Below are positions 30,832 through 46,088 of a stretch of 46,304 bases of DNA, in pieces. Each line of letters starts with the position of its first letter. Positions within the stretch are counted from its first letter, which is position 1. The notes under the pieces were generated by a model that worked only from the letters and a program-made list of their open reading frames with translations, was not told where the DNA came from and searched no databases. The position numbers were made by a program, and so were the translations under genes. This DNA is from a virus, in IMG/VR virus record IMGVR_UViG_3300005663_000078, positions 1-46,304 of that record; one strand, given 5' to 3'.

Positions 30832-30844
30832 ATATGCAAGCAAC

Positions 30845-30875
30845 AAAAAAGCCCACCTATTAAGATGGGCTTTTT
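30845..30875. terminator. Strong bidirectional hairpin terminator
   Basis: AAAAAGCCCA and TGGGCTTTTT form a perfect 10-bp stem around the loop CCTATTAAGA. U-runs flank it on both strands. On the minus strand it separates the terminase transcript from the structured leader and ends the candidate small RNA starting near 30910. Confidence 0.8.
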
Positions 30876-30913
30876 AATTATTCTCATATCTCAGAGCGGT
30901 AGCCTTATTCACA
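30876..30913 (-). ncRNA. Candidate small RNA body, promoter to terminator
   Basis: Minus strand: a TATATTTG box (30914-30921) is followed after about 40 nt by the terminator, with no open frame between. The expected RNA (about 70 nt including the terminator) begins near TGAATAAGGCTACCGCTCTG. Its GGCTACCGCT (30904-30895) is complementary to the four (A/G)GCGGTAGC repeats in the capsid-gene leader. A regulatory antisense role is a hypothesis. Confidence 0.4.
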
Positions 30914-30921
30914 AATATACT
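30914..30921 (-). promoter_or_regulatory. Minus-strand -7 box of the candidate small RNA
   Basis: CAAATATA on the plus strand, TATATTTG on the minus strand. The overlapping plus-strand TTATTCACA at 30906-30914 also fits a DnaA box (TTATNCACA), which may be chance but is notable because this phage encodes a DnaA-domain-IV protein. Confidence 0.5.
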
Positions 30922-37723: not shown

Positions 37724-37999
37724 TCATTTTAAATCTATACCAAACTCACGCCTGTCTAAACTAATCCCAAGCTCTTTAGCTTTTTCAATTAGAGGATATG
37801 TGTGGTGGTAGTTATCTGTGAGTTTCCAAATTTTTATCAGTCGTTCCCGATATAATTCCACAGGCTCTTTTATCTTCTCAACAGTAAATCTATATTTTTC
37901 TAATGATACCATTCCGTTAAAACAACTTGGCTCTTTTTGAATATGAATCCCATAAGTTGACCCATTAAAACTTTCTATTATTTTTTTATCTTCTGTCAT
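37724..37999 (-). CDS. Hypothetical 91-aa protein
   Basis: The frame starts MTEDKKIIESFNGSTYGIHI and ends SLDRREFGIDLK. The middle is charged and helical (ELYRERLIKIWKLTDNYHH). It overlaps the ATPase gene by 14 bp, so it is expressed with it. Family unknown. Confidence 0.6.
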   Translation of the reverse strand: MTEDKKIIESFNGSTYGIHIQKEPSCFNGMVSLEKYRFTVEKIKEPVELYRERLIKIWKLTDNYHHTYPLIEKAKELGISLDRREFGIDLK

Positions 38000-38654
38000 T
38001 GCCTTTCATTTCTATAAAGTTAAACATTTCTTTTGCCCGTGACCATTCGCGGACACTGTAAATTTCTTGTATGTTTTCGTGGGTTAGATTGCTTGTAAAG
38101 TGGGTTCGGTAAAGCCCCCTATCCATTAGGTCGTTCCGGTAACTGATAAGTTCTGCCAAGGGTTGAACACGTTGCCCGAAGTGGATAACCTCCATATTTT
38201 CATCACCTTCATAGCCTAAATCCTGAATAAGAATTTCTGGCTTACAATAGTTTCGCAGAATCTTAATCCCTTCTTCAGAATATTCAATTGCTATTTCCTT
38301 GGCTGTGTATTCCATGCACTTACGAAATGGATTTGGACAGGTAATAGTTGACATCATGTTGACGTAGTGAATGAATGCCGACATCACTAAGGATTTACCT
38401 ACACCACAAACACCATGTAAAAATATTCCCTTATTCAAACTACCGTCAAATGATGGATCGTTATGAAAGTATTTAACCAGATTTTTGAATATGTGTTCGT
38501 TGTCTTTATCAATGTTAAACACAGGTTCTTTTTTATTTAATGCTTTCCCAATCTTGATTACTGTTTTCATCGCCTGTTCGTAATCCATCGGAACAATTCC
38601 AGGAACCTTCTTAGCCTGTTCTAATGATAGTATGTAGTCGTCAATGTAACTCAT
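37986..38654 (-). CDS. DnaC-like ATPase, probable helicase loader
   Basis: A 222-residue P-loop protein. Walker A GVCGVGKS is at residues 81-88 (FLHGVCGVGKSLVMSAF), and a Walker B-like strand is ILIQDLGYEGDE. The later segment LISYRNDLMDRGLYRTHFTS contains the sensor region of the DnaC/DnaA AAA+ class (Thr-Ser-Asn in FTSNL). It would load a replicative helicase; the phage encodes no recognised helicase, so the host DnaB is the likely client. It overlaps the 64-aa gene by 4 bp. Confidence 0.8.
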   Translation of the reverse strand: MSYIDDYILSLEQAKKVPGIVPMDYEQAMKTVIKIGKALNKKEPVFNIDKDNEHIFKNLVKYFHNDPSFDGSLNKGIFLHGVCGVGKSLVMSAFIHYVNMMSTITCPNPFRKCMEYTAKEIAIEYSEEGIKILRNYCKPEILIQDLGYEGDENMEVIHFGQRVQPLAELISYRNDLMDRGLYRTHFTSNLTHENIQEIYSVREWSRAKEMFNFIEMKGNDRR

Positions 38655-38845
38655 GACAATTTTTTCATGATTAATTTCGTCAGCTTCTTATTTAATTCCT
38701 TTTTGCAATTAAAACTAAATATTTCCTTAAGGTTGTCGGTTCTGACCGTGCCAGATAAATCACTACATGTACAGATTATAAGCGGGTAATCGCTTTCTCC
38801 AGTTAACTCATCCAAAATAGCTAGTTTTCTTAATATCTTTTTCAT
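38651..38845 (-). CDS. Hypothetical 64-aa protein
   Basis: A small protein starts MKKILRKLAILDELTGESDY and has TCSDLSGTVRTDNLKEIFSF in the middle. It sits between the DUF1376-like gene and the DnaC-like gene with 4-bp overlaps on both sides, so it is probably made with the replication proteins. Role unknown. Confidence 0.6.
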   Translation of the reverse strand: MKKILRKLAILDELTGESDYPLIICTCSDLSGTVRTDNLKEIFSFNCKKELNKKLTKLIMKKLS

Positions 38846-39612
38846 CTCAATTTTACTTTAGGTTTTGGTTGTTTATTATTTTCATCATTAAGCTTAAAAA
38901 ATCCTTTCCATCCTTTCGCCATTGATCTGTCTATAATCTTAACTGCAATTGATTCCTTTTCTCCTGATAGGTTATATAATTCAGTTAATGTAGCTTGTTC
39001 ACTTTGCTTGGATTTGTATTTAAACTCAAATTCATCATTTTTATACTCCCGCCAATCTTTCCATTTACTTTTAAAAGTTTCTGTATTAAAAAATAAATTC
39101 ACACCTTTCTTAATATTATCTTTATTTACATCTTCATCTACATTTATATATAGTTCAAGTTTTTGTTCTAACATATGTTTTAACACTTGTTCATTTTTAA
39201 GGTCAATAGTTAGGTCAATTTTCTCTTTTAAAAACAGTTCTTTCTTCTTGTTAAGCTTAAAGTTTTTCCTTGCATAGCGCATTATATAACTAATTTTCCC
39301 GGCAGAACTTCGCTTCTCAACAAACTTTTGTCGTCGTTGAATTATCTCTTTTGCAAATCCATTTTCATAACGCTGTTCATCATTCAACTCGAATTTTTGT
39401 TTAAGCACTTGTTCAAACACTTGTTCAAACAGTTTATATTCAGAAGGACGTACTGCACAAATGGAGGCTAATTCATCCAAATCGGAAGGGATAGAACCTT
39501 TATCAAATTGATGTAATATTAGATCAAAATACCAACCTTTTTCAGCTCCTTTCATGCCTTTAGTGGCTGAAATCCATTTGTCAATATAGACTAATGCAGC
39601 AGGGTCTTTCAT
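38842..39612 (-). CDS. DUF1376-like replication protein
   Basis: A 256-residue protein. The first 90 residues (MKDPAALVYIDKWISATKGM, GWYFDLILHQFDKGSIPSDL, DELASICAVRPSEYKLF) match the winged-helix-like DUF1376 (YdaU) found N-terminal in phage replication initiators. The remainder is highly charged, and a C-terminal part containing SMAKGWKGFFKLND resembles the DnaD-like tail (GWKGFF). It would help place DnaC and helicase at the origin. Genes downstream in the operon agree. Confidence 0.7.
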   Translation of the reverse strand: MKDPAALVYIDKWISATKGMKGAEKGWYFDLILHQFDKGSIPSDLDELASICAVRPSEYKLFEQVFEQVLKQKFELNDEQRYENGFAKEIIQRRQKFVEKRSSAGKISYIMRYARKNFKLNKKKELFLKEKIDLTIDLKNEQVLKHMLEQKLELYINVDEDVNKDNIKKGVNLFFNTETFKSKWKDWREYKNDEFEFKYKSKQSEQATLTELYNLSGEKESIAVKIIDRSMAKGWKGFFKLNDENNKQPKPKVKLR

Positions 39613-39614
39613 TA

Positions 39615-40124
39615 TTAAAAACCTTCGTATTTTAATTTGTACTCTCCTTCTTTATTAAAACCTATGCCATTAATTGAATAGTCATAAGTATATATTTCAA
39701 AAATTAAAGTATTAGAATTTAGCAGGAAATCAACCAGATATATAATATCATCGTCCATATTAACATCAGAACCAATACAGATAATTTTATATGTAACAGG
39801 ATATTTGAATTCTCTTTTTTCTAAATAATTCCTGATTCCTTTAATATATCTAAGGGCTTGTAAAAAAGTATTTGTACTAACTAAATCCTTTTTTAATTCA
39901 TAAACTGTAATAGTAGCAGGTATTGCATGTTCTTTTTTAATATTCCATCGTGGCCTTTCAAACGTAATTACATCAGCAATCCCATAAGCTCCTATTTTGA
40001 ATTGCCTGAATATTTTATTAGGATAATAAATAGGGAATCCTTTATTTATAAGGTTTTCAATTGATTCCTTATCTTTGATATTGTCCCAGATAATATCTTC
40101 CAAATCTTTTTCTAAGAACTTCAT
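39615..40124 (-). CDS. PD-(D/E)XK nuclease-like protein
   Basis: The start MKFLEKDLEDIIWDNIKDKE at 40124 is preferred, because upstream codons enter structured element A. Core motifs are a first-helix Glu (EKDLEDII), YGIADVITF (Asp of the PD motif) and TVYELKKDLVSTNTFLQALR (E-x-K). This arrangement is common in Bacteroidota phages and mobile elements. It may process recombination or replication intermediates. Leader element A (40149-40238) precedes it. Confidence 0.7.
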   Translation of the reverse strand: MKFLEKDLEDIIWDNIKDKESIENLINKGFPIYYPNKIFRQFKIGAYGIADVITFERPRWNIKKEHAIPATITVYELKKDLVSTNTFLQALRYIKGIRNYLEKREFKYPVTYKIICIGSDVNMDDDIIYLVDFLLNSNTLIFEIYTYDYSINGIGFNKEGEYKLKYEGF

Positions 40125-40148
40125 AATATAAAAGCCTACTAAAAAGGT

Positions 40149-40227
40149 TGTGACAAAACGATGCAAGAAAGTTTTTACCTTCCGTTCGGCTTAATTTTTA
40201 TGTTCAAATGATTTTCGTTTCGTCACA
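40149..40227 (-). ncRNA. Structured leader element A
   Basis: Minus strand: the 5' arm (227-215) and the 3' arm (161-149) form a 13-bp stem with one G-U pair and no mismatch; it is imperfect if read on the plus strand. The stem starts 3 nt after the TATATTTG box. The 53-nt loop contains AAAAACTTT. After the stem comes AACCTTTTTAG and then the ATG at 40124. It has the same plan as element B, but the stem sequence is different. Confidence 0.6.
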
Positions 40228-40230
40228 TTA

Positions 40231-40238
40231 CAAATATA
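40231..40238 (-). promoter_or_regulatory. -7 box of element A
   Basis: CAAATATA (minus TATATTTG), part of the 20-plus bp attacaaatatagtctttta that is repeated identically at element B. The box is followed by TAA and the stem. Confidence 0.65.
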
Positions 40239-40243
40239 GTCTT

Positions 40244-40777
40244 TTATTCTTCCATTGCATATAAAATATTGTAATACCTAGCAATTTTTTCATAGGTTTC
40301 AACAACTACATCTATAGCTTCATTAAAGCGTTTAGTGGCATCATCACATTTATCGTCATAAAATTGATAAATACTATTTTCAGTCATTTCATTTGCAATA
40401 AAGTTATTCTTAATTTTTTTATCTAAATACCATGCTGATTTTTGGCTTATACTCAGAACCCGGCCTAATTGATGGGTGCTTATTCCTTCAGGGGATAAGT
40501 AAAGTGCAACAAATAACTTACGAATGGGTAATTTACTTTCTTGAAATGGTGTACCAATACGAATACTAAATTGCTTTCTGCATTTCTTACATTTCCATCG
40601 CTTGCCACGATTGGTTAAATTCAATTCATAGCAAACATCGTGATTACAATATTGACAAATAGGTTTACCATTCCATCTAAATTGAGCTAAATAATCAACA
40701 CATTTTTCTTCTGTATTTAATTCCGATAATAGATCAAATGTTGATTCAAATTCTTGTCGCAAATGTTCTATAATCAT
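40244..40777 (-). CDS. IS1595-type zinc ribbon/HTH protein without DDE domain
   Basis: The start MIIEHLRQEFESTFDLL at 40777 follows the upstream stop directly. Residues about 25-80 match the N-terminus of IS1595 transposases: a zinc ribbon (CQYCNHDVCY, then KRWKCKKCRKQFSIRIGTPF). Next comes an HTH segment, ISTHQLGRVLSISQKSAWY. The DDE catalytic part is absent, and about 50 residues of unrelated helical sequence follow. It is probably a domesticated DNA-binding protein. The upstream gene is the HTH-phosphoribosyltransferase chimera. Confidence 0.75.
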   Translation of the reverse strand: MIIEHLRQEFESTFDLLSELNTEEKCVDYLAQFRWNGKPICQYCNHDVCYELNLTNRGKRWKCKKCRKQFSIRIGTPFQESKLPIRKLFVALYLSPEGISTHQLGRVLSISQKSAWYLDKKIKNNFIANEMTENSIYQFYDDKCDDATKRFNEAIDVVVETYEKIARYYNILYAMEE

Positions 40778-40779
40778 TA

Positions 40780-41223
40780 TTAACTCATTACAAATACTGC
40801 GTAAATCCATCGCGGAGTAAGTGTTCTGGCAAAAATTACCGCCCCAACACTAGGTTCATCAATTTTTTTTGACATAGTGTACATACTATTTCCTGTTGTA
40901 AATACATCATCACAAATCAATGTTAATGATGAATCTTTATTCACGTATTTATCCAAAGCCAACTTTAAACGATCACCGCCTGTAGGTATTGATACCACTT
41001 TATTGAATGCTTTTGAATATGTTCTCCAATTTTTAACCCCAATTGCTTCCATAACCATCTGTGAAGGAAAGCCAAATTTTTCTTTCCATCCTAATCTATT
41101 ACAATGCTCTATAGCAAAGAAATATATTGCCGTGTGAATTGGCCTTGTTCGTTCTGGATTTTCAAAACAGAAGTCAAACCAATCCCTTGATAATTCATAG
41201 CCGTTTAACTTCTGCTCATTCAC
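40780..41223 (-). CDS. Chimera of a phage N-terminal domain and a phosphoribosyltransferase end
   Basis: A 147-residue protein. Residues 1-74 (LNGYELSRDWFDFCFENPER, AIYFFAIEHCNRLGWKEKFG) match the N-terminus of larger Bacteroidota phage proteins thought to act in replication. Residues 75-147 match the C-terminal half of phage-type phosphoribosyltransferases: VVSIPTGGDRLKLAL, the PRPP loop LICDDVFTTGNSM (102-114) and GAVIFARTLTPRWIYAVF. Neither domain is complete. It looks like a deletion fusion. Enzyme activity is uncertain. Confidence 0.65.
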   Translation of the reverse strand: MNEQKLNGYELSRDWFDFCFENPERTRPIHTAIYFFAIEHCNRLGWKEKFGFPSQMVMEAIGVKNWRTYSKAFNKVVSIPTGGDRLKLALDKYVNKDSSLTLICDDVFTTGNSMYTMSKKIDEPSVGAVIFARTLTPRWIYAVFVMS

Positions 41224-41239
41224 CGTTAAATAGTATAGG

Positions 41240-41653
41240 CTATTCTACTGTATTTGTTATCCTGGTTTTTGCTTCTAGGATAGGCAAGTTTGCTTCTGTT
41301 GGTATGTAAATCTTATCACCATCCATTTTGTCAATATTTCTAACCCATAAATATTGTATATACTTATCAGTTAATTTCCCATCTTCTATCTCAATAGCTA
41401 TCGCCATTCCCTTTGCGCGTTCAACTTCTGCCTGACTATTTAATTTTTGAGATTCTAAATTTGCCTTTGCTTCTTCAATAAGAATCTTTCTATTTTGTTC
41501 TGCTTTTGCCATTTCAGCACGCCCAAAATTTTCAGCACTTTCAATCTTAACCTTTGACCTCCAAACCTGATATTTTGGTAAGCCAAACATAGCACACATA
41601 ATAATAACAATAATCGTAAGCACGATTGTAAAAAACCATCCTAATTCACTCAT
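41240..41653 (-). CDS. Membrane-anchored SPFH/prohibitin-like miniprotein
   Basis: A 137-residue protein. Residues about 5-24 form a membrane helix (WFFTIVLTIIVIIMCAMFG). Then come KYQVWRSKVKIESAENFGRA, an alanine-rich helix (AEQNRKILIEEAKANLE, QAEVERAKGMAIAIEIEDGK) and IQYLWVRNIDKM with KIYIPTEANLPILEA. These match the C-terminal half of stomatin/HflK-type SPFH proteins (coiled coil, then LWxxxxxK...IxxPTxAN). It could disturb host membrane quality control or superinfection. It is preceded by leader element B. Confidence 0.6.
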   Translation of the reverse strand: MSELGWFFTIVLTIIVIIMCAMFGLPKYQVWRSKVKIESAENFGRAEMAKAEQNRKILIEEAKANLESQKLNSQAEVERAKGMAIAIEIEDGKLTDKYIQYLWVRNIDKMDGDKIYIPTEANLPILEAKTRITNTVE

Positions 41654-41694
41654 AATATTTAAATTAAATTAATCAAAAAGCCCTTCCAACATGT

Positions 41695-41776
41695 TGCACA
41701 CTTACCAGGAAGTAAGATGACACGTTTTCGGGGCTATGAAAAAAGTTTTTGTAACATGTCCTGGTCTAAGTGTGCA
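41695..41776 (-). ncRNA. Structured leader element B
   Basis: Minus strand: the 5' arm (776-759) and the 3' arm (710-695) form 10 bp, a 2-nt bulge and 6 bp. The stem starts 3 nt after the TATATTTG box, exactly as in element A. The 48-nt loop contains AAAAACTTT. The 3' side continues AACATGTTGGAAGGGCTTTTTG before the ATG at 41653. The closing stem has no sequence similarity to that of element A. Confidence 0.6.
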
Positions 41777-41779
41777 TTA

Positions 41780-41787
41780 CAAATATA
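41780..41787 (-). promoter_or_regulatory. -7 box of element B
   Basis: CAAATATA (minus TATATTTG). The surrounding attacaaatatagtctttta is identical to that at element A. Confidence 0.65.
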
Positions 41788-45183: not shown

Positions 45184-45319
45184 CGTCCTAGTTCTTTAAG
45201 TTGTTTAATGTAATCATCAACCATATCCACAAAGGCTGACCTTGCCCGATCAATACTGTCCCCTTCAAATGTAACAAGGTCTTTTACGTCGTTGAATACC
45301 CTTTATAAGTCCCTTTCAT
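45180..45319 (-). pseudogene. HicB-like antitoxin remnant
   Basis: The ATG at 45319 opens MKGTYKGYSTT, as in HicB antitoxins (MxYKGYxG), but a stop follows. In the next frame FNDVKDLVTFEGDSIDRARS and AFVDMVDDYIKQLKEL match the middle of HicB (DxxTFxGxSxxExxxAFxxxVDDYL). About 20 residues between the two are missing. No HicA toxin or DNA-binding tail was found. It overlaps the end of the 55-aa gene. Confidence 0.55.
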
Positions 45320-45470
45320 TTTGATTCTTTTTTGTTTGACGGTCATACATAATAATACTTCCTGCTTTTGGCTTGTCCGTTGTATCTTCTTTACCCTTCG
45401 CCTGTTTCTTCTTTGAGTCAGGAGAATAGATTTTATTGAATTCCTGGAATAGTTCTGTGAGTTGATTCAT
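45303..45470 (-). CDS. Hypothetical 55-aa protein, intact copy
   Basis: A small Lys-rich protein starts MNQLTELFQEFNKIYSPDSK and ends in KKNQNERDL. Bases 45396-45458 are identical to 46011-46073, where the same start is fused to a different tail. It begins 2 bp after the stop of repeat protein copy 1. Function unknown. Confidence 0.6.
   Translation of the reverse strand: MNQLTELFQEFNKIYSPDSKKKQAKGKEDTTDKPKAGSIIMYDRQTKKNQNERDL
45396..45458. repeat. 63-bp direct repeat, left copy
   Basis: Identical to 46011-46073 and offset by 615 bp. It covers most of the 5' half of the 55-aa gene. The right edge of homology (cttcgcc) coincides with the sequence at the end of the 59-aa gene near position 410. 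Confidence 0.9.
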
Positions 45471-45472
45471 AA

Positions 45473-45997
45473 TTATAGTTTTTCAAATACAGATTCGGTT
45501 AAAATGTCCCTGCATATATTGGCAGTGGTTAGTTCGTTTCGCTTTCTGGCAACCTCATCCGGCTGTGTGCTTGCATAATAAGAATCAGCATTTGCCTCTG
45601 CGCTAGCCTTTGCGGCATAATAGGCAGAATAATAGGAGTCGCCAAAAAGGCAAGAAGCAATATCAGCAGCATGAGCAGAAAACTCTGCTGAAGAAGATTC
45701 TGCTAATTCACCAGCAGCACCACCCGCTGCACAAGAAACAATAGTAAGTTGCCTATCATCAATCAATCCATTACCGTAATCAATAGCGGCGTTTATAGCA
45801 GCCTTACTCCGGTCATCTTTCATTAAATGAAGGACGGTTTCAGCACATTTTCCTTTTGCCAAGGTTAACAGTCTTTTGTTTATATTTAATCTTTGCGCTA
45901 ACCATAACATCCAATCGCCACTATGAGAAGCTTGCCAAGCTTTTTGCGGAGTGTCAAATCGTCCCATAAATTGTGTTATTACTTTCTCCTTAATCAT
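45473..45997 (-). CDS. Ala/Tyr/Asp-repeat protein, copy 1 (degenerate repeat)
   Basis: A 174-residue protein paralogous to the copy that spans the window ends. The N-terminal domain shares GDWMLWLAQRL, LTLAKGKC and HLMKDDRSKAA, and the C-terminus shares ARKRNELTTANICRDILTES. The region between (residues about 89-150) is Ala/Ser/Tyr-rich but irregular (SAYYAAKASAEANADSYYAS), unlike the near-pure GCT/TAT/GAT triplets of copy 2. It resembles proteins annotated as Imm-5-like putative immunity proteins. Function unknown. Its start overlaps the 32-aa frame by 8 bp. Confidence 0.75.
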   Translation of the reverse strand: MIKEKVITQFMGRFDTPQKAWQASHSGDWMLWLAQRLNINKRLLTLAKGKCAETVLHLMKDDRSKAAINAAIDYGNGLIDDRQLTIVSCAAGGAAGELAESSSAEFSAHAADIASCLFGDSYYSAYYAAKASAEANADSYYASTQPDEVARKRNELTTANICRDILTESVFEKL

Positions 45998-46088
45998 AAT
46001 TGTAAATTTTCTTCGCCTGTTTCTTCTTTGAGTCAGGAGAATAGATTTTATTGAATTCCTGGAATAGTTCTGTTAATACTTGGCTCAT
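45990..46088 (-). CDS. Truncated 32-aa copy of the 55-aa protein
   Basis: Starts MSQVLTELFQEFNKIYSP, as in the 55-aa protein, then diverges after KKKQAK into KIYNYD and stops. The break lies at the GGCGAAG heptamer shared with the end of the 59-aa gene, so this is a recombination junction. Its ATG overlaps the stop of repeat protein copy 2, and its end overlaps copy 1. Confidence 0.6.
   Translation of the reverse strand: MSQVLTELFQEFNKIYSPDSKKKQAKKIYNYD
46011..46073. repeat. 63-bp direct repeat, right copy
   Basis: Identical to 45396-45458. It marks the second unit of the tandem duplication. Confidence 0.9.

Follow-up and report, generated by a model that had tools for sequence, protein, structure and literature searches.

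What are the two similar sequences that precede genes on the minus strand of this viral genome, and what might they do? The genes and relatives of the window (the whole stretch of 46,304 nucleotides that was analysed) fit a flavobacterial phage, and a contig of a Maribacter MAG carries a terminase with 100% identity to that of the window. The initial annotation had described two elements, A and B, each with an identical promoter block, a 3-nt gap and a long stem, and all of these are present on the minus strand at the positions it gave. The promoters are of the Bacteroidetes type, with a −7 box (TATATTTG) that fits the TAnnTTTG consensus and lies in a 24-nt block (GAATAAAAGACTATATTTGTAATG) identical in A and B; in both, the box is followed by TAA and then by the stem. 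The stems, here called H1 (arms b and b′), differ in sequence and both pair, as had been claimed. That of A is 13 bp long (40227–40215 with 40161–40149) and includes one G-U pair valid solely in minus-strand RNA, and that of B is 16 bp long (41776–41767 plus 41764–41759 with 41710–41695) with a 2-nt bulge. Across the window, the quality of the A stem (score 29.5) is matched at 0.006% of start positions and that of the uninterrupted part of the B stem (score 24) at 0.06%.

Two further helices, H2 and P3, which the initial annotation overlooked, join the loop to the sequence 3′ of the stem: AGCCC/GGGCU and AACGUGU/ACAUGUU in B, and AAGCC/GGCUU and AAGGU/ACCUU in A. Their combined score was equalled in 12 of 2000 shuffles for B, where the test scored a longer alternative outer helix (CAAAAACUUUUUUC with GGAAGGGCUUUUUG), and in 259 of 2000 for A, whose extra helices alone are not significant. 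The features of the two elements are as follows.

40231–40238, minus strand: −7 box TATATTTG of the A promoter, a TAnnTTTG match within the identical 24-nt block
40215–40227, minus strand: 5′ arm b of H1 in A (TGTGACGAAACGA)
40188–40192, minus strand: tentative 5′ strand of H2 in A (AAGCC), alone not significant
40177–40181, minus strand: tentative 5′ strand of P3 in A (AAGGT), alone not significant
40149–40161, minus strand: 3′ arm b′ of H1 in A (TCGTTTTGTCACA)
40144–40148, minus strand: tentative 3′ strand of P3 in A (ACCTT)
40132–40136, minus strand: 3′ strand of H2 in A (GGCTT), continuing into a T tract
41780–41787, minus strand: −7 box TATATTTG of the B promoter
41759–41776, minus strand: 5′ arm b of H1 in B (TGCACACTTA, GA bulge, CCAGGA)
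41731–41735, minus strand: 5′ strand of H2 in B (AGCCC)
41720–41726, minus strand: 5′ strand of P3 in B (AACGTGT)
41695–41710, minus strand: 3′ arm b′ of H1 in B (TCCTGGTAAGTGTGCA)
41688–41694, minus strand: 3′ strand of P3 in B (ACATGTT)
41675–41683, minus strand: 3′ strand of H2 in B with T tract (GGGCTTTTT)

The loop motif said to be common to the two elements, AAAAACTTT, does occur in both, between P3 and the 3′ arm in A and in the linker 5′ of H2 in B; since these sites are non-equivalent, the sharing is probably incidental. A candidate third copy at 30844–30919 (minus strand) was rejected, as H1 is absent. It consists of the TATATTTG promoter, a strong ordinary terminator within 75 nt and then another TAnnTTTG promoter, and could either encode a short RNA or mark the limit of an operon behind the terminase.

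Downstream of the elements lie the following genes.

39615–40124, minus strand: first gene behind A, its ATG at 40124, 7 nt past the last base of H2
38842–39612, minus strand: second gene behind A, a primosomal-type protein (DUF1376; Pfam PF07120, PHROG 3992)
37986–38654, minus strand: DnaC-like helicase loader (PHROG 50)
41240–41653, minus strand: first gene behind B, for a small protein whose N-terminus is predicted to be membrane-like (PHROG 11227, ‘protease’)

The first gene behind A has no Pfam or PHROG match, and a search for its relatives found none. Adjoining A in the replication region, 40244–40810 (minus strand) encodes a protein that contains the zinc ribbon of IS1595-type transposases (Pfam PF12760) and gave no match to a transposase catalytic domain. 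The product of 40780–41223 (minus strand) is by eye phosphoribosyltransferase-like, and 72 aa of it align at 60% identity with part of a ‘transcriptional regulator’ of Polaribacter phage Danklef. Elsewhere in the window, at 45303–46088 (minus strand), two short ORFs flanking the gene 45473–45997 have the peptide LTELFQEFNKIYSPDSKKKQAK in common, a duplicated gene start, and a Met/Leu-rich low-complexity ORF at the contig end (46147–46302) is probably a simple repeat.

The initial annotation took the covariation between A and B as an argument for a conserved RNA structure. Two copies alone are no proof of this; the conclusion was borne out by a family of relatives. When 80 terminase-related viral loci were scanned for TAnnTTTG followed by a stem, the same layout was found elsewhere, including the loop-complementary sequence 3′ of the stem, and relatives of two replication proteins yielded many further elements. 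The collection comprises 94 unique elements with one architecture: a promoter, a short hairpin P1, an A-rich linker (often AAAGAAATTATT), a second hairpin with H2 as its outer and P3 as its inner part, and a GG-UUU end. The pairing segments run in the order a-b-a′-linker-c-p-b′-p′-c′, so that P1 (a/a′) holds b in its loop, H2 and P3 (c/c′ and p/p′) hold b′ in theirs, and H1 (b/b′) is a loop-loop helix; the assignment of P1 and P3 relied in part on visual inspection. Most members are about 80–95 nt long, with the two hairpins and the loop-loop helix. The 94 elements contain 76 different H1 cores, mostly of 6–11 bp and nearly always complementary, and loss of complementarity in relatives, named beforehand as the refuting outcome, did not occur. 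Several phage contigs carry two elements (L299 and L300 on one contig, and L056, L127, L118 and L090), and H1 differs in each case examined.

The family is apparently undescribed. Against the covariance models of Rfam 15, neither the window nor any of six loci reached a gathering score, and a search up to E=10 returned nothing convincing for A, B or the member L042. Its novelty is probable, judged from a search of open papers and from Rfam, which may lack motifs of a 2017 survey (224 motifs). The exact promoter block of A and B was found at only two places in viral contigs, neither of them with the fold, and a nucleotide-similarity search for the element in named phages gave no match.

Since early members had been chosen partly by their H1, a model, R1, was built from P1, H2 and P3 only. 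R1 matches outside the training set carry H1 in the right place, with a median pairing score of 19.5 versus 12.0 for mismatched arms, and the two matches that have no H1 do not have the remaining fold either. Members with an H1 of only 6 bp score barely above background. The promoter and linker pattern alone matched at least 120 stretches; from the matches listed, 66 unique elements were fetched, 32 of which lie above the 95th percentile of mismatched arms. About 35 of these 66 have the whole fold, and the remainder resemble chance matches in coding sequence. In 13 aligned members, 92% of cells are paired versus 80% in shuffles (0 of 500), and the figure for H1 is 98%, with both sides changed at six of its eight pairs, in a set chosen with H1 in view and with pair counts that include related, non-independent sequences. 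The pattern of sequence change thus strongly supports the RNA fold. Counts of G-U versus A-C pairs were discarded as a proof of strand, because the pair scoring used favours G-U. The idea that the element encodes a small leader peptide was also rejected, as the ORF of some members (e.g. L042) is shortened or open in others.

Among eight close members, divergence in H1 is three times that in the remainder of the element (30% versus 9.6%), but overall it does not exceed the divergence at fourfold sites of a downstream gene. Diversifying selection on H1 was therefore rejected, and free drift under pairing suffices. Elements L167 and L170 differ clearly (4 of 16 positions in H1, 8 of 88 in the rest) and have nearly identical downstream genes (3% at fourfold sites), a mismatch probably produced by exchange through recombination.

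The weaker link of the analysis is the assignment of A and B to this family as a divergent subtype with a long H1 and without a clear P1. Their TAnnTTTG box lies 3 nt from the fold, within the limit of about 12 nt set for the family, and H1 is clear in both; P3 and H2 are beyond chance in B and weak in A. No convincing P1 hairpin was found around b in either element, and R1 did not match them at E≤1. The assignment is supported by L182, a locus fetched by protein: among the relatives found, its primosomal protein is the closest (53%) to that of the window. Its element is of the window type, with an 18-bp H1, P3 CCCTGGAG/CTCCAGGG and H2 AGAGA/TCTCT, and its P3 and H2 are beyond chance (score equalled in 4 of 2000 shuffles). 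The sequence CATAAAAAT before the second hairpin is common to A and L182, and downstream of the L182 element come an HNH gene and then the gene for the primosomal protein. Apart from L182 itself, a search for further relatives of it returned a single match, distant and partial.

In the main family, H1 starts 5–13 nt (mostly 9–11) behind TTTG, and a −33-like TTG peaks 21–22 nt upstream of the −7 box; transcript starts are predictions from promoter position. In 36 of 46 cases the first ORF starts 17–30 nt behind H2, so that the element fills the 5′ UTR. In Flavobacterium johnsoniae, structure is least at −20 to +20 around start codons (PMC6847099). Intrinsic terminators cluster immediately before the promoters, at 0.55 per kb, and the same strand downstream has hardly any (0.01 per kb), which argues that the elements begin transcription units. 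The genes behind them are mostly for replication or DNA metabolism: DUF6291/DUF1376 primosomal proteins, helicases, primase-helicases, ParB-methyltransferases, thymidylate synthase and sometimes HNH genes. Four cultured or named phages carry the element at the following positions.

33621, plus strand: Flavobacterium phage 11b
28556, plus strand: Polaribacter phage Danklef_1
34477, minus strand: Polaribacter phage P12002L
10239, plus strand: Cellulophaga phi10:1

With strict filters, R1 matched in 1 of 299 genomes from one host family, and its matches in terminase-related loci of bacterial genomes included no true members. The family is widespread in phages of Flavobacteria and their relatives, at the start of predicted replication-gene mRNAs.

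On these grounds A and B have about an even chance of being cis-acting structured 5′ leaders of phage mRNAs that probably set mRNA life and translation. This reading is favoured by the variety of complementary H1 helices, the L182 subtype, the promoter and ATG spacings, the upstream terminators, the replication genes and the near-absence from hosts; the failure of R1 to match A and B and the non-significant extra helices of A weigh against it, and the tight spacings could instead reflect genome compactness. Transcription would begin at the TATATTTG promoter, a few nucleotides before or at the element, and the nascent RNA would fold into two hairpins with mutually pairing loops; in A and B the loop-loop helix would be unusually long and the stem of the first hairpin reduced or absent. 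In the family, this structure would occupy the 5′ UTR, stop some 20 nt short of the ATG and leave the ribosome-loading stretch open, acting in cis on its own transcript, mostly for proteins of DNA replication or DNA metabolism. Its likeliest job would be to set mRNA life and translation by tucking the 5′ end into a compact structure, with conserved unpaired stretches offered for recognition by a shared factor from the phage or the host. A bound factor is possible because stretches outside H1 are conserved in sequence, and a specific partner is assumed because mere 5′-end protection needs no such conservation.

The other readings fit less well than a cis-acting leader. It is a tentative possibility that the elements are protein-independent leaders that modify RNA polymerase, as a Bacteroidetes counterpart of put, or ligand-sensing leaders common to a phage DNA-replication regulon. 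Antitermination of the put type, in which the RNA would remain on RNA polymerase and make it ignore pauses and terminators of the operon, draws on the similar anatomy of HK022 putL (PMC9378689) and the constant distance from promoter to structure, but with only four same-strand intrinsic terminators in 398 kb downstream, none between B and the terminase in a scan of the window, and a constrained ATG distance that it does not lead one to expect, it is rather unlikely.

Of the identities proposed initially, a leader fits best, and an attenuator and a standalone small RNA fit poorly. In an attenuator or riboswitch, the second hairpin and U tract would be a conditional terminator, on which a ligand or protein would work via the loop-loop helix. 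The GG-UUU end of H2, the T tracts (at least six T in eight positions in 32 of 46) and the conserved unpaired stretches agree with this, but U tracts are poor in some subfamilies (TTTTGACG, ATTTTCGT), the terminator scan picked out only 7 of 96 as simple terminators, and the helices found are mutually compatible, with no alternative, mutually exclusive antiterminator helix seen by inspection; we consider it unlikely. That the element is a small RNA acting in trans is very unlikely, because, for all its own promoter and the terminator-like end in part of the family, its distance to the ATG is constrained and its H1 arms pair within each element and drift freely, as those of a cis fold would. 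An element acting as DNA (a protein operator of inverted repeats, a miniature transposon or a transcription-primed replication origin) is hardly credible despite inverted repeats close to replication genes and the IS1595-type zinc-ribbon gene next to A, since the arms differ in nearly every copy yet keep their pairing, which led us to reject a transposon or repeat origin, the helices cross in the manner of RNA pseudoknots, and a replication origin was rejected for want of a GC-skew turn at the elements of five phages.

Few structured RNAs are known from Bacteroidetes phages, and this kissing-hairpin element is common, a single promoter-plus-linker pattern matching at least 120 stretches. Its four-helix kissing fold is unusual in that one helix varies freely in sequence yet remains paired. 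As the leader heads replication genes of cultured phages, its function is directly testable, and the element offers a compact leader module for Flavobacteria.

Among known RNAs, the leader of phage T4 gene 32 has a pseudoknot at the 5′ end of a replication-gene mRNA, with an unstructured stretch between it and the ATG. The present elements resemble it in both respects, but stand before many different first genes, with no ssDNA-binding protein among those examined, and their kissing-hairpin fold is larger and without a known protein partner. They share with the pistol ribozyme (RF02679) the segment order a-b-a′-linker-c-b′-c′ and the A-rich linker. Unlike in the ribozyme, P3 encloses b′ instead of lying behind it, and there is no evidence of cleavage; the pistol model is absent from the Rfam matches of the window, the loci, A, B and L042. 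The c4/P4-type phage immunity RNAs (RF01695) likewise have complementary segments within the leader of a phage operon, but here the pairing is internal to one element, and their Rfam model was not matched. The start of HK022 putL nearly coincides with that of the transcript; the RNA is about 70 nt long, forms two hairpins, occurs twice per phage and is protein-independent (PMC9378689). Like putL and putR, the present elements are phage-specific, lie at or near the predicted start of an early transcript, form two hairpins in about 70–95 nt and occur in two copies in some genomes. They differ from put, a feature of which is binding to the β′ zinc-binding domain of RNA polymerase, in the few intrinsic terminators downstream, the fixed spacing to the ATG of the first gene, the Bacteroidetes hosts and the long loop-loop helix, which is not described for put.
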